Assembly (NCBI GenBank): GCA_021234155.1
Contig: JAJEKV010000028.1
Span: 15,003,928 to 15,067,927, forward strand
Source of the DNA: Isoetes taiwanensis
Lineage: Eukaryota; Streptophyta; Lycopodiopsida; Isoetales; Isoetaceae
Direction of reading: 5' to 3'
DNA: 64,000 bases
Shown: positions 2,892 through 39,567 of the stretch, in pieces
How the letters are laid out: every line of letters starts with the position of its first letter
Position numbering within the stretch: position 1 is the stretch's first letter
Position numbers and translations under genes: made by a program
Notes under the pieces: model-generated
Seen by the model: only the letters and a program-made list of their open reading frames with translations
Told to the model about the DNA's origin: nothing
Database searches by the model: none

Positions 2892-4097
2892 TTAGAAAGC
2901 AAAATTCAAAAAAACAAAGCTATAAAGAGGACACGCACAACACTTAGAAGTGGAAGAATTTTGACAAAGTTGGAGGAATCCATTAGCCATTACATAAAGT
3001 GCATTTGCAGTTGTAGCTGCAATCTCTAAGCCTTGCCTCTTAATGGCAAGTGTCTCTCCATGCAATTCTTTCTGCATACTCTCTTGCCTTGCATGCCATT
3101 CCATCTTGGATTCTTCACTTTTTTGCATCAAATTGATCCATCCATCTACACCACGAGGCATTCTACCCCTTTTCTTCCCGGTTCCGGGGGATTATCATTA
3201 CCATCAATATTTCCACCATCAGGACCCACTGGTGTATTTGGGACCTCATTGACATCATCCTCATCCTGCATGATGTCTGGGTCATTCCCTTGTATTGATT
3301 AACCAAATAAAATTTAGAGTATGAATGTAACATGAATAAATAAAATGACTAGAATAAGTATTACCTAGTGTTGAATGTGGAGTGGTGAAAGAGCTTGGAA
3401 TGGAAGATTCAGACACAAGGCCACCAGGATTAACTGATGTCTTTCTTCCATAACATCTGTCCATTGCATCATAAACATCCATGAAAAAGTTAATAGGCAA
3501 ATTGCAATCTTTGCGCTCCGCACTAGACATTTGCCAGTAGCTATTTCGCCCGCTAGGAATGTCCCTTTCATAATCATTGATCTTCTTAAAGTCTCCTGCC
3601 AGCCCCTCCCATTTTGTCAAGCAAGCTTTATGAGATCTTCTAACATCGTGTTTCCAACAATAATCTTCAATCTCGCTCCATTTTACATCTCGTTTCTTCA
3701 TTTTCTCTCTACATCCTCCAAACATACGCTTCTCCTCATCTGCCTTCTTGGCAGCTTGAAGAATCGTCAATTCATGAGCAGCCCAATGAGTACTCACATA
3801 ATTTCTTACATTCTTGGAATTGGCAGGTCCTTGGGCAAAATTCTCTACATTAGAAGCACCATTACTATTACCAGTGCAAGAATTATAAATTTCTTCCAAT
3901 TCTTGTGTTTCTTGTACACAATCTTCATTGTTTAGGAGGCCTGTAAAAGAGTTCTGCTATAAAAGTATTTATTTTACAAAATAGACTTGAGAATTGAAAA
4001 TTAATAAATCAGAAATGGAAATACAGACCTGGCTAATCTGTTGTGCATAAATTCGAAATCCAGCGTTGTGGGCGAAATTGCTGCCGTTTCCTCTCAT
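2892..4097 (-). CDS. Trihelix (Myb/SANT-like) DNA-binding protein, three exons, intact
   Basis: Best-preserved gene here. Exon 1 is 4097-4029 (ATG; MRGNGSNF..., 23 codons, phase 0). Exon 2 is 3953-3365 and exon 3 is 3288-2892. Both introns have GT-AG ends and the phases join cleanly: CAG/gt to cag/AAC, then G/gt to aag/GG. Exon 2 holds a trihelix-type domain: tryptophans in THWAAHE, VKWSEIEDYCW and LTKWEGLAGDF, followed by an aromatic and basic segment (SYWQMSSAERK) and FFMDVYDAMDR. Exon 3 has an acidic run (DPDIMQDEDDVNEV), a basic patch (GRKRGRMPRG) and a helical C-terminal part as in trihelix factors. A further splice near 2945 is possible, so the C-terminus is uncertain. Proposed role: nuclear, sequence-specific DNA binding. 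Plant PIF/Harbinger elements also encode Myb/SANT-like proteins, but no Harbinger transposase is visible next to it. Confidence 0.75.
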
Positions 4098-12800: not shown

Positions 12801-13163
12801 GAAGAAACAAGGTGCCGACATGAGGGGTTGCCCTCCGGTGGCACGAAAGTGTGTTTTCGTGGTTTCTAGATCGAAACTCTTTTGTATCGGATTTTTTGTG
12901 TGAACATAGGGTGTGTCGTTTTCTTAGCCAGGAGTTTTGTTTACGAAGTCGTACAGGGAATTTATAGAACTGGGGGAGGAAATAATAATGCTTCTAACTA
13001 ATTTACATAAATGGTATTGTGCAACAAATGACTATGTGATTTACAGGTACTTGAGATATTGAACGAGCACAATGAACAAAGTGTTGCACTATGATTTTAC
13101 ATATATAAAAGCAGGTTAAGACAAATTTAAGCGTTGATGTTGTTATCATTTCACCTCACATTC

Positions 13164-13317
13164 GTGAATTTTACCTCACAATGACAACCTTATTGGCTTG
13201 GTAATATTAGCATATGTCGGATTATCTTTGTAAATTTATCGTGAATTTTACCTCACAATGATAACCTTATTGACTTGGCACTATTAGCATATGTCGGATT
13301 ATCTTTGTAAATTTATC
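13164..13317. repeat. Two-copy tandem repeat, 77-base unit
   Basis: GTGAATTTTACCTCACAATG opens both units (13164 and 13241). Each ends ATCTTTGTAAATTTATC, with only a few differences, so the duplication is fairly recent. Confidence 0.85.
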
Positions 13318-13861
13318 AAACCAACCTGGCACAAAATGCACAAGAAAAATTGTGAGACACGCATGAAAAGCACTAAATGCAAGCCATCTGCATTTGTTAA
13401 CATAACAAACAATCAATACTTTCAACAGAAATGCTATATATTGCATCATTTATGCAAGGGATTACATTCCTTCATTACAGATAAATTTCTCCCACAGTGA
13501 AGCCACAATTAAGCCATTAATACTTGTTCAGAGAGAAAAAAAAAAAAAACATCGAAGTTAAAGAGCAATATAGACAATAGCTTAGCCTCCACAGTATGCA
13601 AATATATGCAGTTATAATAATCTCCCTAGAAGGCAAACAAAACAAGGCTATCGAATCAAGTTAGGTAAGAAGAAAAAATGTCCCTGGAAGGAATCAGCAG
13701 ACCTCCCTTATAGAAGAAAATGCAAAGGCCAGATATTCCTTTATGTTAAATAACATGCAAATCTAGGAGAAATCGTGTAACAAAAACATAAGACATATAA
13801 CATGGAACATAAGACAAATGACATGGAGCTCACAGGAAGGCCAAAGATCACGACACACTTA

Positions 13862-14205
13862 CCCTGTAGCATGAAATGCGGTGCCCTAAATCAATAACAG
13901 TAGCGAGCTCCACCAGAATGACAACGGCAAGACCTAGTGCCGCAAATCTACCATTCAATCCCTCTATATAAGGATTGAAACCTAATTCTACAACTAAACT
14001 CCCCGATACAGGATGTTTCAGAGGCACTGGAGGCAAAAGCACATTCTTAATTGTACTTTTCCTTACATGCACGGATCACCCTCTTCTTTTCAAGCCTTTC
14101 TGAGCTCTGCTTTCTTATCGAATCCGTTTGTGACCTTGTGTTGAAGCCTGGCAAGACGAGCTTCAAAATCCTCTTCTTTTACTTCTGCTTCTTCAGTTTC
14201 TTCTT
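13862..14205 (-). pseudogene. Light-harvesting-like (chlorophyll-binding motif) gene fragment
   Basis: Part of a nuclear gene for a chloroplast protein. After an AG at about 14206, an acidic segment (EETEEAEVKEEDFEARLARL, then KKAELRKA) is followed by a TGA and a frame change. NVLLPPVPLKHPVSGS and ELGFNPYIEGLNGRFAALGL follow. The E..NGR.A.LG pattern and the following hydrophobic helix are the hallmark of LHC-like (LIL/one-helix/ELIP) proteins that bind chlorophyll in thylakoids. The last codons run into a consensus donor (AGG/gtaagt at 13861), and no later exon was found. N-terminus and transit peptide are absent. It appears to be a partial copy; the exact subfamily is not known to me. Confidence 0.5.
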
Positions 14206-14235
14206 GGGATCTTCTATGAGGCATGTGAATTTGTA

Positions 14236-14450
14236 GTGGTGCAGCAACACATGGAATATGGAAGCGGGTTAGCCAGTTTGCGCAGGGGCCACCCAGCCAC
14301 ACTGGTGACCGCCAGTTTACAGGCAACAATAGGTTTGGAGCAGTTTTTGGCATATCCTAGGCATATTTTGACATATTATTTCAGCATATACTTAGAATAT
14401 GCCGGAAACTCACCTGAGCAAGTGTTGCCCCCTAGGGACCCAAAAAACAA
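14236..14450 (-). repeat. Dispersed ~200-base repeat, copy 1
   Basis: Read on the minus strand it begins near GGGTCCCTAGGGGGCAACA and continues through GCATATTCTAAGTATATGC, GGATATGCCAAAAACTGC and AAACTGGCGGTCACC. Similar text occurs at 23480-23655 and 36713-36900. It lies just upstream of the light-harvesting-like fragment, as the other copies lie upstream of their gene fragments. Confidence 0.55.
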
Positions 14451-14723
14451 CTTTGTCTATTGCTACAAGTGTTAGGGCTACAAAATTAGAATTGACTTTT
14501 GAATCAATATACTTGGATTTGACTCACAAGCTTGTGCTTGTGGCATTCTAACGATGCCAAAAGCTATAGTTAGATTCTCCTTTTCCGCTTTTGCACAATA
14601 AACCTTTAGGCCTTTAATAATATCTTTCGATCCACCTCATCAAGAGTAACATCTATTGGACATGTTCAATATAGGAGTGCCTCCATCATTTCTACATGTT
14701 TTCATTTCTTTTGTCATTTATAG

Positions 14724-15056
14724 TCATTTCATGTCTAATACCTGCTCTTTGTCTGTAAAGCAATGTTTTTCCCGTGTTTCAACCACCTTTAACCTCTGCA
14801 TTTCAGAGTTGTGGCAGAATTGTGAAAGTACTTCTAAATGCCTATTCATAACATCTTTTATTCTCGCAATCAATACGTCATCCGCATTCCCAGATACATG
14901 ATCCACTCTTCTAATTCATCAATGAAAATGCTAAACAAGGTCAGGGAGAGAAGACATCAGGGAGAGAGGACATCCCGGTTTAATGCCAATATTGCTCACA
15001 ATCCTTTTAGCATGCCGGCACGGACTAGAAAGTTCATTAAGAACCTTTTCATATAG
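14724..15056 (-). pseudogene. LINE reverse-transcriptase fragment
   Basis: Minus-strand text in two adjacent frames reads KVLNELSS, SNIGIKPGCPLSL, FIDELEEWI, then GNADDVLIARIKD, NRHLEVLSQFCHNSEM and FTDKE. These match RT motifs of plant non-LTR elements in order: GIKQGCPLSP, IDELE and the YADD box, here with Asn for Tyr. There is a frame change near 14925 and no complete RT. It is a 5'- and 3'-truncated relic. The LINE endonuclease piece at 58607-58978 could come from the same lineage. Confidence 0.6.
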
Positions 15057-15776
15057 GGTTTTGATAGAGTTGTGGACGCTCGTGCGGCGCCTCGTCTGGC
15101 GGAGCCGCCTCTAAAAATTATACGCCGGAATTTTTTCCAGGCGTGATTATGTAGTGCATAAAAGGCACGGGCAGCAAATATAGACTAGAGAATTAGAAAA
15201 CAATTCCTAAAAATCAAGTAATGCTTCCTGTGTACATCCATGTTCCTCTTGCCATAGGAAAATCTACTTATTTTTTATTTGGCAACTACCGACACTCCCA
15301 ATTGGCATCAATTCCTAGATAAATTATTGTGAACCTAGTGACAAGCTATTCTCAGCTATTGGATCAAACTTTTTGATCCACCCGCTCACCTTAATGTACA
15401 TTAAAACTAAAAGAAAGCCTCACAGTGCCCCTCATACCAATTTTCCCTCATATCAATTTGATGCAATCTCGGCCGTTGGATCAATTTGATCCACTGCATT
15501 CACTAAAACTTTATTACAATATACACCTTGATCCTTATAGAGGCCATATTTTGTACAATTTTGAAGACAACCAAAGGGCGGCATTTTGAAGATGAGTTCC
15601 CATAATCAAGGAAAGAGACATTCCTCTTTTGAGGCAGCCACGTGGCTCCTGGTGCCAAACGCAATGGCTATGACCATATACTAGACTTACGAAGAACTTG
15701 TCCCCACAAAGCTAAGTTCTTGGAATTTTCTTTCTTCCAAACCCCTTTGTTAACTGCTCCTTAAGGTGTAGCCCAT

Positions 15777-17450
15777 TCATTCTTCTATTTTATATAACTC
15801 TGAAGACGTAACAGATGACAGAGAATCTACGCTGCCAGCAATATATCCTCCACTCCAAGCATTCTAAGTTAAACACATGTTAGAGGCTGCACAAACGCTT
15901 TTCAATCACATATTGAACCTTTACCTGGGAGTTGAAACCATCGGTGACCCCATCAACATTTAAAATCTGTTAAGGAACAAAAATAACAAATAAGTTAGTG
16001 CAAGTCTTGAAGCATGCCAAAGGATAAGTGGCAAACCTCCCCAGCTAAATACAGAATCTTGCATATTCTACTCTCCATCGTTTTCAGATTCACCTGTCCA
16101 AGCCAAAGCACGCTAAAACTTAAGAAAATTCCGAATGCTATGGAAAGCAAACTCAGATTACCTCTTTTAGTGGAATTCCTCCAGCAGTGACAAACTCATC
16201 CTTAAACTTTCCCTGTAATAATACCACTCGCTTAATGCTTGAGGTTGATATGTCAAAAGAAAGCAGTCCAGTTTAGAAAGCTTACTTTACTGGACACATT
16301 GAACATGCACTTCTTTAGAAGTGCAACCAGCTGTTGCAATGCTTTGTTCGTGATACATCCCCATATCATGTCTCCATCCAAATTCTGCTAAGAACATTCA
16401 ATTGAAGACAATTTTTCCCCATAGGAGCCAGGTAAAAGAAACTTACCTCCCGCTCTATCAGCTTTTGCTACTGCATAAGATGGGAAATGCATAGAGACAT
16501 AAGCTTATTAGTAACATAAAATCAATTGGAACTGAGTACCAAACTACTAACACATCCCCCTTCCCCTTGAGCATGAGAAAAAAATTTGACATCTCTACAT
16601 GGCAGAGATCGTCATGTTTCAAAACTTTCATTTCCATTTTGCAATCTATCTTTATGCAACCAGTTCCATAGTTCTCTAATCACTTACAGCAAAGGATGTC
16701 TTATGTTTAACTAAAATTGCTCCAGCCTCTTCGTTTTTTAATTCAGAAAGGAAATCCACCAATAATGTTCCTGGCAATCATTCTAGGTAAAATACAATTT
16801 CTAAGCTAGACTACTCCTTTATGATGCTGGCTTTCGACAAATTCCCTCAACAATCAAATTCACCTTGGTAGTTAGATTCGAAGAGGTCTCATGCAGCCCA
16901 GGCTGAAAGGCGCAGTACAACAGGCCCACTCAATCTCCAATGGGTTACAAGAAGGGGTCCATGCTAAAAATCAACGTATACATTCAAATTATCATACAAC
17001 AACAAGTTTGGCTGCAAAAAGAGATCAGAATCTCTGAAATACCTGAATAAAATGCGTGTCATGACTCCCACAAATTAATTCTGCCCCGACATGTGGAAAG
17101 CTAACTTAAAATGAGCACAAGCTTAATCAGTTGTTTACACAAGCTAACCATTGCAAAACCATACGCCTAAATGTGAAACCTTCGCATCTTACTCCTGCTA
17201 ATCAATTCAAGGCTGTATCCTCCACTGTGAAAGTAAAAAGGCTTGGTCTTGGTTCACTTATCGTATGACCAAGTTCAACAGCAAAGGTATAACCCTGCAA
17301 TTCCAGTTAGTTGACCTATGGTGATGCAGAATAATATTGTTCAGTCTTGATATCATCTGATGCGCGCTACCAATGGCAAACAACACAAAGTCTGTTAGGC
17401 TATTTGCAAACTGATTTGAAGCTAACGCACGGTGTATATAGTGCATCATA
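15777..17450 (-). pseudogene. HI0933-like flavoprotein (FAD/NAD(P)-binding), C-terminal half with introns
   Basis: At least nine exon pieces of an HI0933/YhiN-type flavoprotein. In gene order: about 17430-17360 (LTDFVLFAIGSAHQ), 17294-~17180 (GYTFAVELGHTISEPRPSLF), ~16960-16864 (LVTHWRLSGPVVLRLSAW), 16770-16688 (TLLVDFLSELKNEEAGAI), 16470-16447, 16384-16286 (NLDGDMIWGCITNKALQQ), 16212-16162 (GKFKDEFVTAGGIPLKE), 16093-16037 (VNLKTMESRICKILYLAGE), 15966-15925 (ILNVDGVTDGFNSQ), 15863-15777 (NAWSGGYIAGS, ending TGA). Nearly all junctions are GT-AG with compatible phases. Defects: TGA where Arg is expected in SAWAA(stop)DLF, further stops near 17190 and at 16470, and an AT where the donor after GSAHQ should be GT. 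The FAD-binding N-terminus is missing. It abuts the adenylosuccinate lyase end directly. Confidence 0.8.
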
Positions 17451-17465
17451 GGGGAAAATAACAGA

Positions 17466-17653
17466 TTAGACCCTTTTTGCTAGGGAACTAGCATATCCTA
17501 TGTAACCCTCAGGTGTCAAATTTCTTAGACTTTCTTTAACATTCTCTGGCAGTTCCAATTTCTCAACAAATTCTAGCATGCGTTCTCTTGTAATGTCACA
17601 ACCATGGGTGAATTCCTTCAGCTTTTTATATGGCTCCTGGATGCCATGTCGCC
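17466..17653 (-). pseudogene. Adenylosuccinate lyase, last coding exon (3' of Copia insertion)
   Basis: C-terminal exon of adenylosuccinate lyase, the purine-synthesis enzyme that removes fumarate from SAICAR and adenylosuccinate. It reads MRRHGIQEPYKKLKEFTHG, then ITRERMLEFVEKLELPE, then NLTPEGYIGYASSLAKRV and a stop at 17466. This closely follows the family pattern (MRRYG..EPYEKLKELTRG, LPEE..., LTP..YIG). The first seven bases of the exon (ATAATGA) now lie 5.1 kb away at 22795-22789 because a Copia element inserted there; the five-base target duplication is present on both sides. Confidence 0.85.
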
Positions 17654-17658
17654 TCATT
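17654..17658. repeat. Target-site duplication of Copia (left)
   Basis: TCATT directly precedes the 5' LTR and recurs exactly at 22789-22793 after the 3' LTR. Confidence 0.9.
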
Positions 17659-18117
17659 TGTTAAATGATGTCATGTTATTTGGGAGACCTATGAGAAGCA
17701 GTGGCAGTAGGTCAAAGTCAAAGTCAAAGTCAAAGTCAAAGTCAAAGTGGCGGCACCCCTACCGGGTGTTCTTTGGGCTCGCTAGAAACACCACAGACAC
17801 CCCCCCCCGCCACTTAGGGGTTTGCGTTGACCAGTCAAAGTCAAAGTCAACTAGGGCCGAATTTTAAGGAAGGCAGGTCTATCTACTCCTGATTTTTAGG
17901 CAAGTTGAAGAACTTTCTATATGAAGGGGATGAACAATTTGACAAGTGGATGCACCCGGATTAGAAGGTAAATATGGAGATAAATCTGGAGTAAGGCATA
18001 GACAAGGGGCTTTGCAGGTCGAAATATGAAGCAGGAGATTGTTTAAGCGCCTGATTGATCTTGTTGTCAGTGTATTGAGTATCAGTTTATTGAATACATT
18101 ATTTTCAAATTCTAACA
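17659..18117 (+). repeat. 5' LTR of Copia
   Basis: 459 bases, TG...CA. Carries about six copies of a GTCAAA hexamer near 17709-17747 and a second short run near 17836, flanking a GC-rich segment (GGCGGCACCCCTACCGGGTG). Confidence 0.92.
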
Positions 18118-18118
18118 G

Positions 18119-18131
18119 TGGTATCAGAGCC
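18119..18131 (+). promoter_or_regulatory. Primer-binding site (tRNA-iMet)
   Basis: TGGTATCAGAGCC lies one base after the 5' LTR and matches the complement of the initiator tRNA-Met 3' end used by plant copia elements. Confidence 0.9.
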
Positions 18132-18133
18132 AT

Positions 18134-21100
18134 GTCAAGCAGGTTTGGAGCAGGGTTGTTGAACTCTATTGCAAAGTGTATGAAGGGGGGACCCAGGGCT
18201 TTGATTTGGAAGGAACAAATCAAAAATGTTCTTGAAAATGAAGGGCTCTCGGGAATTAGTTCAAGGAACTAGTTCAAGTGGGGATGCATCTCTGGGCTGC
18301 AAGAAGAAGTTCTACTGGAAAGTCCGGTGAAACTTCGAGAAGAGTGGGGTGAAGTAGACTCAAGTAAAAGTGGTAAGGATGAAGGTGTTAAACTGCGTGA
18401 AGCATATGGTATTTTGACCAAGCAAAGTTGGGGCTTCAATTTTCTTTGAAGATAGGGAAAGTCCCCTAGTGATATTTGGAAGTTCCTGCTCAAAAACTAT
18501 GAGGAAAAAACGTCATCTCAGATTGATGTTCTTGATAAAGCACTTAGGATGCTAAGGGTAAAAGAAGGTGATGACTTACCAAAGTTTTTCTCTAAGTTTG
18601 ATAACATTGTGGCAGACTTAGAAGGTGCTGGGGTGTTGCTGACTGAACAACAAAAATTATTGCATGTGGCAAGAGCAGTTGAGGGGAACAAGCAGTTGTC
18701 AACTCTTATTAGGAATGTGGCCAAAACCAGAGAGGCAGCAGAAGAAATGATTCGAACAGAGTTTGAACAAAATAAGGTATTGTATGATGATGACATTGAA
18801 GATAATGTTGAAGTGTTGTATGCAGGTAAGGGCAAAGCAAAGTTTTCAGGAAAAAGTGCTAAAGATAAGAGTGAAATAGGTCCTTGTTTTCATTGCAAAG
18901 CAAAAGGGCATTTAAAGATAAGTTGTCCTAAATTGAAAGAGGTTGAGTGCTTTAACTGTGGAGGCAGAGGTCACTTCGCAAACAAGTGCTCAAGCGGCAA
19001 AATGAATAGAGGCAGACCAAGTAGAGGAAGAAATTATTCTAGAGGTCGAGGAAGAAATCCTGATACACAAAGGTCTGCTGTAAATTTGGTGCAAGATATT
19101 GAAGAAGAATCAAGTGAAGAGGATGAAGATGCTGAGGTAAGTAATTATGACATTTTGGTTGTTTCAAAAGAAAAATCTAATAATGATGATGAAATGTTAA
19201 TATTAGATAGTGGAGCAGAAAAATCCGTGACCAGTTCAGCCAAATTATTCAAGGAGGAAAAAGAAGGAAGGATTAAGCATATCAAGTTAGGAAATGGGAA
19301 GTTGCAAGATGTTCAATGCACGGGAATGTTAGAATTGTTTGACCTTCAAGGGAAAGCAGTAAACTTGAAGGATGTTTTGTGTGTACCTTCACTAGTCAGA
19401 AATTTAATTTCTGTTGCACAGTTAGTAGACATGGATTACACTGTTGTTTTTGACAAGTATCAATGTAAAGTGCTTTTGAATAATGAGATCAAATTTCTTG
19501 GAAGAAGATTTGGTAATTTGTTTGCATTGGATAGTGGTTGTTTGCCCAGTGTTAATTCTGTTATGATTCCAGATATGGACACTTGGCATCTGAGGTTATG
19601 TCATGTTAATCATAGCACCATAGATACTATGATTAAACAAAAAATAATCAAAGCAAAAAATGAAGTTGATGAGCCAAGAATCTGCCTAGGTTGCATGCTA
19701 GGAAAACATGCAAGATTGCCTTTTAAAAGGGCAAAGAGAAAAACCAAAGGGGTGTTGGAGCTAGTGCATACAGGATCTCGTGGCCCTCTTAATGTTAGAG
19801 GAATATCGGGAAAAAGGTATTTCATTACCTTTATTGATGACTTTAGTAGAAAGACAACATGCATGTGTCTTAGAACTAAAGATCAAGCCTTTGAGGCTTA
19901 TAAAATGTTTTCTTCGCAGAAGTGGAATTAGAAACAGGAAAAAGGTGAAATGTATTCGATCGGAGGTGGTGGAGAGTTCATGTCATCCGAAGTTTATCAA
20001 GTTTTGCAAGGTAAGGGGAATAAAGAGACAGTTTACATGTAGTTTTCTCCACAAACTAATGGCATTCTTTGAAAAGGAAAAATAGGACAATTTTAAATCT
20101 TTGCCGAGCTATGATAAAACACATGGGGCTACCCAATTATTTGTGGGAGGAAGTCGCCTTAACAAAGTGAAAGTTCAGAATATGTTACCAAATAGAGCCA
20201 TCGGTGGAATGATCCCGAGATGAGCTATGGTGGGGGAGTTAAACCAAACTATGAGACACTGAGAGTTTTTGGTTGTCTAAGCTTTGTTCATGTACCAAAG
20301 CAACAAAGGTTAAAGTTAGATGATCGAGCAAGAATAGCCTTTCTTGTAGGATATGATCAAGAATCCAAGGCATACCGATTATTTGATCCACAAAGGAAAA
20401 AGATTTTGATCAGTAGAGATGTGACGTTTGACGAATCTCAATCTTATAAAAACATAAAGTTTTTCTCTGTTAATCCTAAAGAAAAGGAAGTTCAGAAATT
20501 GAATACGAACTTTATTGATGATGATGATGAGCAGGATGCCAACAAACTCTCCTCTCAACAAGTTGGTGCTGAAGACGCTTCAGATAGTGTGGCGGATACT
20601 ATAGAAAAGGAGGTAACACAGCCAAAGGCTGGTAGAAGAAAGCTACTTATTTCAGATCTTGCAACAAGAGGCTAATGTTGATCATGAAAGATTTGGAAGA
20701 GATAACACAGGTAGAAGTAGGAGAATACAAAGTGAAGCAGCAGGTGTAAACCTTATTGAAATCCTTGCCTTGCTGGATACTGAAGTACCAAAATCTTATA
20801 GAGAAGCTATAAGTGTAGTTGATGCAAAAAAATGGAAAATTGCCATGAATGATGAGCTGGATGCATTTAAGAGAACAGGGACGTATGAGCTTGTAAACTT
20901 ACCTGAAGGTAGACATGCAGTGGGGTGTAAATGGATATTTAAAATCAAGCGAGGAGTACAACCTCACTCAATTAAGTATAAAGCTCGATTAGTAGCACAG
21001 GGATATACACAGAAGAAGGGAATTGACTATGAGGAAACTTTTTCCCCTATAGTAAAAATGACAAGTATCAGGATGTTGTTAGCAGTAGCAAATGCAAAAA

Positions 21101-22190
21101 GAATTTTTGAGGTACATCATATGGATGTCTCTACCGCTTTCTTGAATGTCGACTTGGAGGAGGATATCTTTATGATGCAACCTCCCGGCTTTGAGCAAGG
21201 GAAAGATAAAGTGTGGAAACTTAAAAAGGTCAGATATATGAGAGGCAAATACCAAGACAATGGTATATTTGCATGGACTCATATTTAAGGGAACAAGGTT
21301 TTATAAAACTAAAGGATGATGGAAATATTTATTTATTTAAGGATGGGAATGAAGTATGCTATATTGCATTATATGTGGATGACAATGTGATGGTTAGTAG
21401 CAATCTTGATGTGCTACAAAAATGCAAAGACATTCTCAAGAATCGATTTAAAATGATGAGACTTGGGCGAACTTAAAAGTTTTTAGGAATTGAAGTCTTG
21501 AGAGATAGAGACAAATGTGTTCTTACTTTGACACAAGGTGAGAATATTGCAGGCATGCTCAAAAGATTCAATATGGAAGATTGTAAGGTGGTAAAACTCC
21601 CATGGTTCCGTGTAACAAACTAACCTTGAATTTGAATGATGACAGTCGAAATGGAAAACATTCCATATCAAGAGTTAGTTGGTCGCTTACTATATTTATC
21701 TTTTTGCACAAGACCCGATATTTCATTTGCGGTCAATATTCTAAGTAGATCTTGTCATAACTTTGGAAAGGAGCACCGGCAGCCTAAGAGGGTTCTAAGA
21801 TATTTGAAAGGAACTGTAGATTATGGGATACAATTTAATTACGATAACATGGAGTTGCTATCATACCGTGATTCAGATTGGGGTGGAGACCCGATGAAAG
21901 AAAATCAACTTCGGGGAATTATTTGCATGCTAGGAGGAGGGCCCATCTCATGGAAATGCGAGAAACAAAAAGGCAATAGCATCGCCATCTGGAAGGCAGA
22001 ATATGCAAATTGCAACCCTTGTCGCTAAGGAAATAGTATGGAGTGAAAGGTTGCTACAAGAAATAGGTATAGAGCAAAGAAAACCTTTGAAATTGCTTTT
22101 TACAGCTTGGTCTGAGTTGCATAGGAATGATGAAAAATCCAATACAACATGAAAGGACCAAGCATATCGAAAGCCGAGATGCATTTCATA
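18134..22190 (+). pseudogene. Copia gag-pol polyprotein, frameshifted
   Basis: Starts MSSRFGAGLLN just after the primer site. A TAG at 18270 and frame changes break gag until 18549, after which 460 codons are open. That segment has two CCHC knuckles (CFHCKAKGHLKISC, CFNCGGRGHFANKC), a protease motif ILDSGAEKS, the GAG-pre-integrase zinc region (WHLRLCHVNH..., CLGCMLGKH) and the start of the integrase core with FIDDFSR. The usual first integrase Asp (HTDLCGP) is replaced (HTGSRGP). Integrase is frameshifted at 19931. RT resumes at about 20760-21288 (WKIAMNDELDAF, KARLVAQGYTQKKGIDYEET, MDVSTAFLN), then changes frame to YVDDNVMVSS near 21390. The RNase H side runs 21636-22028 (RLLYLSFCTRPDISFAVN). 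Degenerate text continues to about 22190. A dead copy; it may still be mobilised by intact relatives. Confidence 0.9.
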
Positions 22191-22330
22191 AGGGATTTAG
22201 TGAAGAAAAGAATCATTGAACCGCAATATGTTCAAACCGAAATGCAAGATTGGCGATATTTTGACAAAGGCTTTGACAGAGTTAAAATTTAGTAGACTGA
22301 GACATATGATCAGTTGCAAGGAAAAATAAC

Positions 22331-22342
22331 ATGAAGGGAAAG
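22331..22342 (+). promoter_or_regulatory. Polypurine tract of Copia
   Basis: ATGAAGGGAAAG sits immediately before the 3' LTR, where plus-strand priming takes place in LTR elements. Confidence 0.7.
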
Positions 22343-22788
22343 TGTTAAATGATGTCATGTTATTTGGGAGACCTATGAGAAGCAGTGGCAGTAGGTCAAA
22401 GTCAAAGTCAAAGTCAAAGTGGCGGGCACCCCCTACCCGGGTGTTGCTGGGCTCGCTAGAAACACACAGACACCCCCTGCCCGCCACTTAGGGTTTGTTG
22501 ACTATCAAAGTCAAAGTCAACTAGGGCCGAATTTTAAGGAAGGCAAGTCTATCTACTCCTGATTTTTAGGCAAGTTGAAGAACTTTCTATATGAAGGGGA
22601 TGAACAATTTGACAAGTGGATGCACCCGGATTAGAAGGTAAATATGGAGACAAATACTGGAGTAAGGCATAGACAAGGGGCTTTGCAGGTCGAAATATGA
22701 AGCAGGAGATTGTTTAAGCGCCTGATTGATCTTGTTGTCAGTGTATTGAGTATCAGTTTATTGAATACATTATTTTCAAATTCTAACA
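22343..22788 (+). repeat. 3' LTR of Copia
   Basis: 446 bases, same termini as the 5' LTR, with about four GTCAAA hexamers instead of six. Followed at once by the TCATT target duplication. Confidence 0.92.
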
Positions 22789-22923
22789 TCATTATCTACA
22801 AGCACAATAGGTTTGCAAATAAAACTTCCTTATCCTGGATGCTAGAGAATATAAAAACAACTTACAGTCTGATGGGGTTCTGCAAGAACCTCCCAATGTT
22901 GGTTCGGGTCCTTTGTTTGTCTC
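22789..22923 (-). pseudogene. Adenylosuccinate lyase, penultimate exon and start of last exon
   Basis: Exon 22923-22866 encodes 19 residues, KDPNQHWEVLAEPHQT at its end, matching DLxxTWEVLAEPIQT of adenylosuccinate lyase. It has a strong donor (ACT/gtaagtt). The 70-base intron ends ttgtag at 22796, and the first seven bases of the last exon (ATAATGA) run to the Copia target duplication at 22793-22789. Joined across the element the frame is continuous (HQT then IMRRHG). Upstream exons with the catalytic residues are missing; lysyl-tRNA synthetase exons lie there instead, only about 80 bases away. Confidence 0.85.
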
Positions 22924-22999
22924 CTGAAGTGAGCAAATAAGCAAATTAGAAGGGGGACATATTCAATGGTTTTCATACAGAAGAATAATAGAAAGTAAC

Positions 23000-23261
23000 C
23001 TTTGTTGCCTGACAATCTTCATGAGGTTTCATAGCCGGGAAAAGCAGAACTTCCTAGAACACATATGCTAAATTAGTTTACGTGGTTGTGACGCGAAATC
23101 CAGGTTATAAGAAATACCTTGATGTTCTGTGAATCAGTTAGAATCATTGCAAAGCGATCTATGCCCATTCCCCAACCAGCTGTTGGTGGCAATCCATACT
23201 CCAGGGCAGTACAAAAGGTCTCGTCAATTTCCATAGCCTCATCATCACCCATCAACCTGTC
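23000..23261 (-). pseudogene. Lysyl-tRNA synthetase, C-terminal exons
   Basis: Two exons of a class IIc lysyl-tRNA synthetase, which charges tRNA-Lys. Exon 23261-23118 (48 codons) reads [40 protein letters not shown] and QNIK. It contains class II motif 3 (GxGxGIDR), whose Arg contacts ATP. Exon 23053-23000 (18 codons) reads EVLLFPAMKPHEDCQATK. The splice sites are GT-AG and the phase is 0. If the last exon is read through, it ends after about 8 further codons, which suits the short variable C-terminus. No upstream exon (motifs 1 and 2, anticodon-binding domain) was found; a dispersed repeat begins about 220 bases upstream. It is a partial copy. Confidence 0.85.
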
Positions 23262-23479
23262 CTGTAGTGATAAGATAGAGATTACCCCCTGCATAAGTTT
23301 GATCAGAAAATAAAACACTTTCCAACTTCATCTTCTGCTGATCTGCAAACCTATCAGAGGCATCAAACCTACCTTTGTCTTTACCCAAGCAAGTGACTCT
23401 TGATCCAAATGCTACAGAATTTACGCCATCCCCTACAGCTTTGAGTCTCCATCACCTCCAGCAAACGATTCCTCAAACC

Positions 23480-23655
23480 GGTTACCCGGTTTTTAAAGTC
23501 GCTGCCCAACAACAACGGCCACCGCCAATTTACACCCCACAGCAAGTTTTTAGCAGTCATTGGCATATGCCTGGCATATGCTGGCATATCCATAGAATAT
23601 GCTATAAGCCCACACAAACGAGGGCTTGCCCCCCTAGGGGCAACCCAAAAATGAA
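23480..23655 (-). repeat. Dispersed ~200-base repeat, copy 2
   Basis: Minus-strand reading: GGGTTGCCCCTAGGGGGGCA, AGCCCTCGTTTG, then GCATATTCTATGGATATGCC, CAGGCATATGCCAATGACTG and AATTGGCGGTGGCC. Clearly related to 14236-14450 and 36713-36900. It lies directly upstream of the lysyl-tRNA synthetase fragment. Confidence 0.6.
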
Positions 23656-24150: not shown

Positions 24151-24328
24151 AATGGTCAACAACCAATGGCTCACAACAAAAGCCCTTTTTTTGTGCGTGT
24201 GGTGCATAATGGTCAACTACCAATGGCTCACAACAAAAGCCCTTTTTTTGTGCGTGTGGTGCATGATGGTCAACAACCAATGGCTCACAACAAAAGCCCT
24301 CTTTTTGTGTGTGTGGTGCATAATGGGC
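24151..24328. repeat. Three-copy tandem repeat, 57-base unit
   Basis: Units start at 24151, 24208 and 24265. Each has ATGGTCAACWACCAATGGCT, CACAACAAAAGCCC, a T-run and GTGYGTGTGGTGCAT. A T-tract precedes them. Confidence 0.9.
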
Positions 24329-24369
24329 ACATGAAGGGCTTGAAGGGCGCATGTAGTGCAGTTTCCCCG

Positions 24370-35679: not shown

Positions 35680-36710
35680 TGACAGAGAAAAACTGAGGAG
35701 ATGCTAAAGTGCAAGAGCAAGAAACTAGCAGGGGACCATGAGCTATCCAAAGATCAAGATTTCAACTTTATATAGCTTGAAAGAGAGGGAAAATTAGAAC
35801 TTTACCTGCTTGATCATGTGGCTAGATTGCATGCCACATTATCAATCCTCAAGAAAATTGATCTAGAACGCACATAAATGGATGATTGGAGGGAAAAGTA
35901 GTTGCAGCTAGGGATCCGTGAATAATGCAACAGAAATGGAACATTTGACATGCATAAACGGCTAGGAAATACATGGAATTCCTTTGCATGCCTTCAGGAA
36001 AATTCTAAACCATTCAAAACAGAGAAAACCCATAAATAAAAACATCCAAGAATGGAAAAGCTCTGTGTCAACATCGGCAGAAGGCTAAACTATTCTGGGA
36101 ACAATACCATGCCATGTTTAGCGATGATTGAACCGTGTTTAGGCAGGATTCAGACAAATTTTAGCATCTCTGAGTGCCATCGTGAGGCGCAGCGAACAAA
36201 TTCAGGTTTAAGGGTTGGACCTTAGAAAGCTCAGATGTGGATGCCTCAGGTCCGCGCGGTGTTGCAAACGTGGTGATCCTCCAATAATGGCTAGTATGCT
36301 CTATTGAGTTCCATTCTTAGATACGTTGGGGTGTATAGAATTGATGATATATTACATCTTTTGTGTGTTATTTGATATGAAATGTGAAGATCTTTCTACA
36401 ATCTTTCTACAAATGTTTTTCTCTATGGCATATTTTATTTTCTTGTTGTCGCTATTGTTTTCTTTCTTTATTTTACCTTGTATTTGTTCTTAAAAGTAAA
36501 GTACCAGATGAATTGAATCGAATTGAATTGAATAGAACAATTTTTATTGGGACTTAATAAAGGAATGTAGTAGACTTATTACTGTCTGGATTAAATGAAA
36601 ATGTCATATTTTTATAAAGCCCTTGATCTGGCAACAGAAGGTCTAACCTTGCTTCTTGTGCTATAGATACAAACGGCTTCGTTTCATGAGCTTTAGGCGG
36701 TAATGCTTTT
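35680..36710. other. Upstream of pogo copy 2, non-coding
   Basis: No gene recognised. A GAATT-based repeat (ATTGAATCGAATTGAATTGA) lies near 36512. Confidence 0.4.
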
Positions 36711-36712
36711 TC

Positions 36713-36900
36713 GGGTTGCCCCTAAGGGCAAGCCCTCCCTTCTGTGGTGATGTGGAATATTCTAGGTACGTGTCAGAATATATCCGGATATACTGATGAC
36801 TGTCCTAAACCTGGTGTGGCCAGTCGTTTTGCTCGTCACCTGTGTTGCTGATCGACCCAGTCGCCTCTGTTCAGACCAAACAAACTGGCATGCATCCCAT
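36713..36900 (+). repeat. Dispersed ~200-base repeat, copy 3
   Basis: Begins GGGTTGCCCCTAAGGGCAAG and contains GGAATATTCTAGGTACGTGT and AAACCTGGTGTGGCCAGTCG. Same order of landmarks as copies 1 and 2, opposite orientation in the window. It lies directly upstream of the BUD31 exon fragment. Confidence 0.55.
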
Positions 36901-36914
36901 AGCTACAACACTGG

Positions 36915-37035
36915 AATGCCAGAGGTGCGCACTACCAGAATCTGCTACTCCAAGGGATGGAAACTCATCGAGCGTACCCTTCGTGACCTCGAGGCCATGG
37001 TGTCACAAGCAAAAGCTACAAAAGCGGTTGAGGCA
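36915..37035 (+). pseudogene. BUD31 (G10) splicing factor, first-exon fragment
   Basis: ATG at 36915 opens MPEVRTTRICYSKGWKLIER, TLRDLEAMVSQAKA. This follows the conserved start of BUD31/G10, a spliceosome-associated zinc protein (MPKVRTSRVKYPEGWELIEP, TLRELDAKMREAEN). The match fades after about 40 codons. The cysteine-rich C-terminal part was not found downstream, so this is a fragment. The frame stays open for a further 25 or so codons without similarity. Confidence 0.65.
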
Positions 37036-37129
37036 AGTTCATTTCAAACAAATCTAAAATATGATAAAAAAGGTAGTCGTGTTTTTCGGTTTTGTGTACG
37101 GGCATCCTCTTCTTCGACATAGCATCTGT

Positions 37130-38560
37130 TTTTGCTTCGGCGCTTTGTTTGCAGAAGCAACACTTTTCATTCCGTGTCAGCACTTCCATTTAGTGTCAGC
37201 ACATTCCATTTGTTGTCCTCATGCATTGTACCTGGTATTTTCAAACCAGGACCATTGTTTCCCTTTGTTACACGGCATAAGATTTCCATTTCAAACTCCT
37301 CAATAATATACCACACAATGGAATTGGCCTGAATAATGCATCTTGTATGCCATCCCAGTGAGGCAATCAATCAATTTATTTTCAATATAGTAATTTGATG
37401 ATACTTACTCTTGAAGAGAAAAGCTATTCAATAACATGAAGGATATAAGCTTAGCCATTTAATTTGCATGGAAGTAGTGATAGTGTTATGTTTTAAGCTA
37501 GATTAAATCTATGATCATCCTATTTCAGGGGTATTTCATATGGTAGGGGTTCTTACCTTGATTTCTAAGACTTTGTAATTTCTTTGCTTTTGAATTCCCT
37601 GCTATAGTAAGCACAACCAATAGAATGTCAAAATATCTAAGTAAATATTATGGATTTTGAAGATCACTACTTGCCACTTTTGTCAGCATAATCTTTCACT
37701 TCCTGCAACTAGTTAGTCTGGCTTAGTCTAGACCTTATAACGTCGTCTCTTCATCTGGTAGAACCTGATATAATCTTGACATTTCTCATCACTTCTTAGT
37801 GCCTTTTCAACACTTTTGTGGAAGGCATGTATACGATATGGTATTTGGAAATAACTATCAAACTTATCGACAGCGATAAATTTATCTTTATGTTCCTATT
37901 CCTGTTGTGTTCCTGGTAATTTTAACAAGATGTTGTCTTTTGTGTATTGCCTTCAACCGATCTATATCTCTATAATATTTAGATAGGTTACATCAATGCT
38001 GGAAAAACTACATTTTAAACACATTCAGTGGCCCAAGAGTGCTTCCAAATGATAAGCTTTTTGCTATACTAGATCTCATTGCAAGACGTGTTGAGTATGT
38101 TTTCTAAGCTTATAGCACACTTGGATTCGTTTTAATTATGCCAAGGCTTGCACATACTTGAAACTTATAGCAGGAGAATGTTCATCTGAAACATTCTTGA
38201 AAAGTCAGTTCTTGGTAAAATATTTGCCCTATTATGTCGTTCATAGTTGCCGAAAAGAAGTGCTTTTGATTTTGTTCAAAAGTTGCATGCACAGCTTGTG
38301 AGTGTTCATTCTTGATGATCATATAAGATGATGATCAATGGAATTATAATAAGATTGTCAAACTTCATTTTATTTCATTACGACTAAGATTATATTGCAC
38401 AAAGTTGCGTGCATAACTAGATGCAGACCAATGTAGAAATCAGCTCTAACATGTGCTTGTTTACAATAATTGATACTAGTCAGGCTAATGTTTCTGTGCT
38501 TCAGATGCTATTAAATCATGCCTAGATTTTTTTATTTCTAAAGCTCAAATTTAGGACCTA
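37130..38560. other. Non-coding gap after BUD31 fragment
   Basis: No exon recognised. It could be intron or flanking sequence copied with the fragment. Confidence 0.35.
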
Positions 38561-38755
38561 AGTATTTCAATGACCTCGTATACATCTGATAATTTATTTT
38601 GTTCAAGATTTTCGTTCATGTACCACACAAAAAAAGGAGTTCAAGATATCGTTCAAGCCAGAAAAGATCTCCGCCAACATTTCATTTTGGAAGCTACGAG
38701 GAAGAAGGTGGTGGAGATGTCTCTAATGGAGCTAGATCCAATGGCTCCAACATCA

Positions 38756-38808
38756 TGAACATAGACAAAGCTGTAGATGTTGCTGGTAAAGGGCTGCATT
38801 TGTTTGTT
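38756..38808 (+). repeat. Direct repeat unit, left copy
   Basis: GAACATAGACAAAGCTGTAG and ATGTTGCTGGTAAAGGGCTG, CATTTGTTT. A nearly identical copy is at 43951-44000. In one frame it reads NIDKAVDVAGKGLHLFV. The upstream 38570-38758 open frame (RKDLRQHFILEATRKKVVEM) may be part of the same unknown coding relic. Confidence 0.7.
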
Positions 38809-39567
38809 AACATTAAAAATCACATTACCAATTTCCACAGTGTGCAATAGCTACCCTCTATCCAAGATCTACCCATTTCATTGATTCCAGTCAATACAGA
38901 CCAACCTGCTAATCTTTTCCCTTTGAATCTATCGTACATCATTCCTCTGGCAATTGTGCGAGTTAGTGAGTGGGTGCAAAATCATAGCAAAAATGTCTAT
39001 TAAATATATCTTATATGGACATGAAATGGCTATTCGTTTTGTAAACTAATTTATTAAGGGATGAGCACCTGAATGGGCAATCAAATTCAAAGAACTGGCT
39101 GCTACTTTTACGTTATGCTGCAACAATTCTTATCATCATTTGACATAAATGTCAATTGAAAATTTTTATTTAGTTTTCAATTCTTATCAAATGTCAATTC
39201 AAATTTTTTATTTAGTTTTTAATCTACGGAATCATTAATATTAAAATTTGTACACTGGCTTAAATCATGTCTACGTACCATCCACATAAGAACATTATTC
39301 CATTGCCAAATCTAATTTTCTCTATGCCTCTCCACGAGGGCAACCCGTTGTGCGACAACACTTTGTTTTTTTCAAGAAGGTGCCGCTTTTTACGTTTTTT
39401 GTTTCCGGGTGGCAGGGCAATAGTTGATAAAATATCTTTGCTAGATCACGCTTGGATGTGCTAATTGATGGCCGAGATGAGTGTTGGAATGTTGGAGTAT
39501 GTGTGTAATGGGCACATGAAGAATGACCAGTGGGAGGAGCTCGAAAAGCCCATCAATGGACAATGGG

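Follow-up and report, generated by a model that had tools for sequence, protein, structure and literature searches.

Pieces of three host genes in Isoetes taiwanensis as the probable cargo of a chimeric Helitron2-type transposon insertion

How do the 3' portions of three unrelated housekeeping genes come to lie head to tail on one strand with their introns retained? This question is raised by a stretch of the Isoetes taiwanensis genome (assembly GCA_021234155.1, contig JAJEKV010000028.1, positions 15,003,928 to 15,067,927), referred to here as the window, meaning all 64,000 nucleotides analysed. A first-pass annotation had described the array as about 2.7 kb of minus strand, attributed to multi-gene capture by a Helitron or Pack-MULE-type element. 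The exons, their order and their common minus strand are real, with C-terminal pieces giving translated matches to lysyl-tRNA synthetase (KRS, E=3e-27), adenylosuccinate lyase (ASL, E=3e-20) and an HI0933-type flavoprotein (E=4e-9 against PDB, E=7e-16 against Pfam PF03486). The unit that holds them is larger than had been described, extending over about 12808-23651, and the array is very probably the cargo of one rolling-circle transposon insertion of the Helitron2 kind. To find copies, each part was used as query in DNA searches of the genome from which the window comes (1.658 Gb, 1,110 contigs); the best 40 candidates per search were scored, and many copies were read over part of their length. 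The coding and inserted parts of the unit are as follows:

22913 to 23353, minus strand: 3' part of the lysyl-tRNA synthetase gene, captured with its introns, 93% identical to the KRS gene on contig C1033
22789 to 22912, minus strand: captured 3' part of ASL, first piece, matching the ASL gene on contig C907
17659 to 22788, plus strand: Copia LTR element with nearly identical LTRs and a 5-bp target site duplication, TCATT
17398 to 17658, minus strand: captured 3' part of ASL, last exon and 3' flank, 87% identical to the parent until about 17405
15157 to 17397, minus strand: module B with the HI0933 flavoprotein exons, copies on C1083, C1050, C1007 and C1052
about 14731 to 15081, minus strand: LINE-like reverse transcriptase fragment, read by eye from the translation, copies on C1050 and C1083
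about 13851 to 14075, minus strand: possible one-helix/chlorophyll-binding-like fragment, with weak PDB matches only

Alignment to parental genes succeeded for the KRS and ASL pieces but not for the flavoprotein. The KRS parent lies on C1033, where further KRS exons are present upstream of the matching part, and the ASL parent is the gene on C907, in which a 20-residue ASL signature is present upstream. Homology to both parents runs through the introns, and since these are alignable, capture took place at the DNA level; copying of this kind by a mobile element, as originally proposed, is thus well supported. The splice sites, described earlier as mostly intact, are not all preserved: at the first KRS intron the C1033 parent has GT as donor and the window has AT. 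Retained, parent-alignable introns also argue against retroposed or LTR/LINE-carried gene copies, an explanation that we consider very improbable; the LINE-like fragment in the middle of the unit and a 5' tip that ends in AAAAA on the plus strand would fit it, whereas the ends of the element match Helitron2. The LINE-like fragment (about 15080-14731) gave no match in a Pfam search. The possibility that the directly repeated tips described below are LTRs of one young element was considered and rejected, as they are only about 73% alike. For the flavoprotein, searches of the genome by family and by protein returned only element copies and no HI0933 parent; we infer that this piece, too, was captured from a host gene.

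The Copia element splits the ASL piece and is flanked by direct duplications of TCATT at 17654-17658 and 22789-22793; it is a later insertion. With the Copia element set aside, the array contains two joins between gene pieces, both of which could be mapped to the base. At the first of them, KRS homology stops at 22913 and ASL homology starts at 22912; a fusion protein of KRS and ASL is not expected, because the KRS stop lies upstream of this join. The same join is present at no fewer than seven other loci, namely on C974 (two copies), C1056, C996, C922, C1037 and C924, and it is older and multi-copy, unlike the flavoprotein join. On C996 and C922 the fusion includes a longer KRS part, on C996 with about 4 kb of KRS homology reaching nearly to the start codon, and for this reason the form in the window seems to have been shortened, with the 5' terminal module attached to KRS at 23353/23354. 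With gaps ignored, the KRS piece in the window shows 99.3% identity to C996 and 94.7% to the parent.

The C996 locus itself (C996:6335500-6349700) holds a KRS gene of nearly full length joined to an ASL tail, with a partner at C922:416753-420578 that is 97.8% identical over the stretch compared. No family tip was found in 14 kb of C996 around the fusion, and the locus may represent a KRS-ASL fusion of intact appearance.

KRS and ASL together form a module, designated A, that recurs on C974 (in two places), C1056, C1018, C996, C922, C1037 and C924. Its copies match the window down to about 17393 and then run on differently, while module B copies match the window from 17397 (in the case of C1052, from 17320), with differing sequence upstream. 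Two chimeric junctions result:

17393 to 17397, minus strand: module A/module B junction with 5-bp microhomology (TAACA), beyond which A and B copies each continue differently
14727 to 14731, minus strand: second chimeric junction, with short filler and slight microhomology

At the former, which lies inside a flavoprotein exon and constitutes the ASL/flavoprotein join, the window reads ...GCCTAACA followed by GACTTTGTG, where module A copies have GCCTAACATAA and module B copies ATTGTAACAGACTTTGTG, TAACA being common to both. At the latter, a C1083/C1050-like stretch meets a tail common to C1052, C51, C1089 and C1007, a tail that includes two tandem copies of a 77-bp unit at 13162-13315. Neither junction was found at another locus among the scored matches. 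The flavoprotein piece belongs to a repeat family other than the KRS+ASL family, and the two did not travel as one capture but were joined from separate transposon lineages. The notion of a single three-gene capture therefore gives way to that of a chimera of at least two, and probably three, separately amplified modules.

What carried these modules is indicated by the ends of the unit, which comprise the following features:

23646 to 23651, minus strand: 5' end of the element, TTTTT (23651-23647, either target T-run or element) and then GGG from 23646
23475 to 23651, minus strand: conserved 5' terminal module of about 180 bp with a 5' hairpin, GGGTTGCCCC/GGGGCAAGCCC
23354 to 23474, minus strand: sub-terminal spacer of this 5' end type, common to about nine other elements
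14264 to 14447, minus strand: internal second 5' terminal module, partly decayed, about 73% identical to the outer 5' module and 85-93% to other loci
12808 to 12835, minus strand: 3' end of the element, GAGGGCAACCCCTCATGTCGGCACCTTG, then a T-run

The same 5' boundary (TTTTTGGGTTGCCCC...) was found at 15 loci with mostly unrelated sequence outside it, and the hairpin folds with z=-3.2. The elements that share the spacer, about nine in number, depart from the window sequence once the KRS junction is reached. The first 20 bases of the tip occur in 7,802 genome copies at no more than one mismatch, compared with none for the reversed control, a figure that counts tips and not whole elements. On the sense strand the 3' boundary reads ...GGAGGGCAACCCCTCGTGCGCAGCACCTTG followed by T and is common to about ten loci with different flanks; this type of 3' end is seen on C1056, C1052, C1089 and C51 as well as in a second element of the window (end at about 39367). 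Family 3' ends were described by the pattern GAGGGCAACCC-N8-24-CTTGTT, and the strict motif was counted 351 times against the 7,802 5' tips, the 3' pattern being longer and subfamily-specific. Stems of the GTGC/GCAC type are present near the 3' end in several copies, with a weak fold on C1056 (z=-0.5) and z=-3.0 over a wider stem in the window. Position 4039 of C974a was also considered as a 3' end and rejected, since most of 13 further copies continue past it; that boundary is local to one copy and its duplicate, and the true 3' end lies about 140 bp further on.

Helitron2 elements have been described as having asymmetrical terminal inverted repeats (ATIRs), of which the 5' one, 0-2 bp from the 5' end, forms a hairpin at the tip and the 3' one lies 20-30 bp inside the 3' end, and as inserting between TTTT and T/C without target duplication (PMC3627910). 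In the present family GGGTTGCCC directly follows the T-run and is hairpin-forming, and the inverted GGGCAACCC is set back from the end by about 18-20 bp in six elements, a little less than the published distance. The 5' flanks end in T-runs, the 3' flanks start with T and the empty site lacks a target duplication, with the element starting after TTTT(T) and terminating in CTTG before T. Canonical Helitrons (Helitron1), in contrast, have 5'-TC and 3'-CTRR ends and insert between A and T, whereas here the ends are T/GGG and CTTG between T-runs. The earlier suggestion of a Helitron is consequently a good fit in its Helitron2-type, non-canonical form, but that of a Pack-MULE is not. Capture of several genes together with their introns is typical of Pack-MULEs, and an origin from these or from another TIR transposon would explain that aspect of the array; it is nevertheless highly unlikely, as the tips recur one at a time and in direct orientation, no long inverted copy of the 5' tip was found closing elements, neither a long TIR nor a 9-bp target duplication is present, and the empty site shows no target duplication of any kind.

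This empty site is a paralogue on C1027 (L042), in which the flanks outside 23655 and beyond 12806 are contiguous (about 80% identical) and meet in a T-rich run. Since both flanks of the window are contiguous there, 12808-23651 constitutes one insertion locus, and the two intact 5' tips and two 3' ends in the window can be matched in the correct order and orientation, 23651 with 12808 on the minus strand and 36707 with 39367 on the plus strand. Such precise ends, together with the empty site, contradict the least probable explanation of all, namely that no transposon was involved and that the pieces are ordinary genes in decay or segmental duplications. Some loci do resemble segmental duplicates, as C974a/b and C996/C922 share long flanks; but the window, C1056, C1018 and C974a have cargo in common as far as one shared 5' end, outside which their flanks are unrelated, and the parents of KRS and ASL are on separate contigs. 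The apparent duplicate on C974 involves C974:10009892-10014003 and C974:10180837-10184952, about 170 kb apart, and the first C974 copy has many scattered differences, some of them possibly assembly or polishing errors.

Taken together, we favour, with a probability of roughly 0.83, a single insertion of a non-autonomous Helitron2-kind element, whose chimeric structure was built by successive rounds of transposition and by template switching or microhomology repair. A putative RepHel protein would start at a 5' end, terminate at a downstream 3' end and copy flanking host DNA, and repeated rolling-circle rounds would add further fragments. A front of type A (KRS+ASL), a middle of type B (flavoprotein and reverse transcriptase) and the tail of a third element with its own internal 5' end would then be joined as neighbouring elements switch template or undergo microhomology repair, and Copia would have inserted into ASL last. 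RepHel genes are abundant in this genome, with 150 scored Helitron_like_N matches and 1,813 first-look candidates. One intact locus was read (L084, C1018:33462000-33471999), in which a 1,979-aa RepHel open reading frame contains Rep and a PIF1 helicase; no family ends were found within 10 kb of it, and Helitrons have possibly been active recently in this genome, judging from this locus. The lack of family ends at L084, the HI0933 parent not found, the weak 3' fold on C1056 and the excess of 5' tips over the strict 3' motif weigh against the favoured reading.

A closely related alternative, to which we assign somewhat less than an even chance, invokes the same Helitron2-type elements and differs only in the origin of the joins: front, middle and tail would have inserted separately, head to tail, and been fused by chromosomal deletions through microhomology end joining, the chimera itself never having transposed. 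The 5-bp microhomology at 17393-17397, found at the window locus only among the scored matches, is in keeping with this, as are same-orientation 5' tips 4-9 kb apart at other loci. On the other hand, C1052, C1007, C51 and C1089 all have the tail preceded by the same 280 bp, which indicates that composites do move. Furthermore, no leftover 3' end was found in a scan of the window between the outer 5' end and 12808, and the empty site fits one insertion. Template switching in the course of copying and later deletion between adjacent elements are both possible origins of the joins, and the chimerism could be post-insertional, while a single insertion of a Helitron2-kind element remains the reading that we prefer for the locus.

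Among known systems, the Helitron2 group (Bao and Jurka 2013, PMC3627910; Chlamydomonas CRe elements, Helitron-5_SMo) shares the 5'-tip ATIR hairpin, the 3' ATIR and insertion after TTTT without target duplication, but the family in the window differs in carrying intron-bearing fragments of several host genes. Helentrons and HINE/DINE-1 elements are similar in their sub-terminal inverted repeats, insertion at TT and high-copy non-autonomous forms; Helentrons are defined by an endonuclease domain, and gene fragments are reported to be infrequent in them, having been found in few genomes (PMC4067079). Nesting and sequential transposition have been put forward to explain maize Helitrons that have multiple termini; these show comparable stepwise capture, several gene fragments and extra internal 5' ends, although their ends are of the canonical ATC/CTAGT type and those of the window element are Helitron2-like (PMC3288121). 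Fusarium FoHeli elements likewise have ATIRs and non-canonical ends, but are fungal, with 27 putative capture events that the authors judged unimportant (PMC5148889). The main text of the Isoetes taiwanensis genome paper makes no mention of Helitrons (PMC8566536).

With its junctions mapped to the base, its empty site and its parental genes, the present locus provides material for testing capture models (end bypass, template switch, repair); cargo of this type can also push up the apparent numbers of genes and paralogues. Gene capture is well known in Helitrons, the best-documented extensive cases being canonical ones from maize and bats, but is reported as infrequent for Helitron2/Helentron elements. 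The present lycophyte family, of Helitron2 type and with about 7,800 tips, would bring in the other branch as well through its mosaic junctions and its intron-retaining cargo from several genes. A bolder proposal, which we regard as rather doubtful, is that this lycophyte family acts as a combinatorial exon shuffler, in which 5' tips, captured genes and 3' ends would be swapped by template switching in rolling-circle replication, spreading fusions of host genes through thousands of copies, some of them possibly transcribed.

The second element of the family in the window, at 36707-39367 on the plus strand, is complete, with both ends and a length of 2.66 kb; a Pfam search of its open reading frames gave no match, and parts of it recur at other loci. 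Beside the insertion, at 24152-24329, a 57-bp unit is present in three tandem copies.
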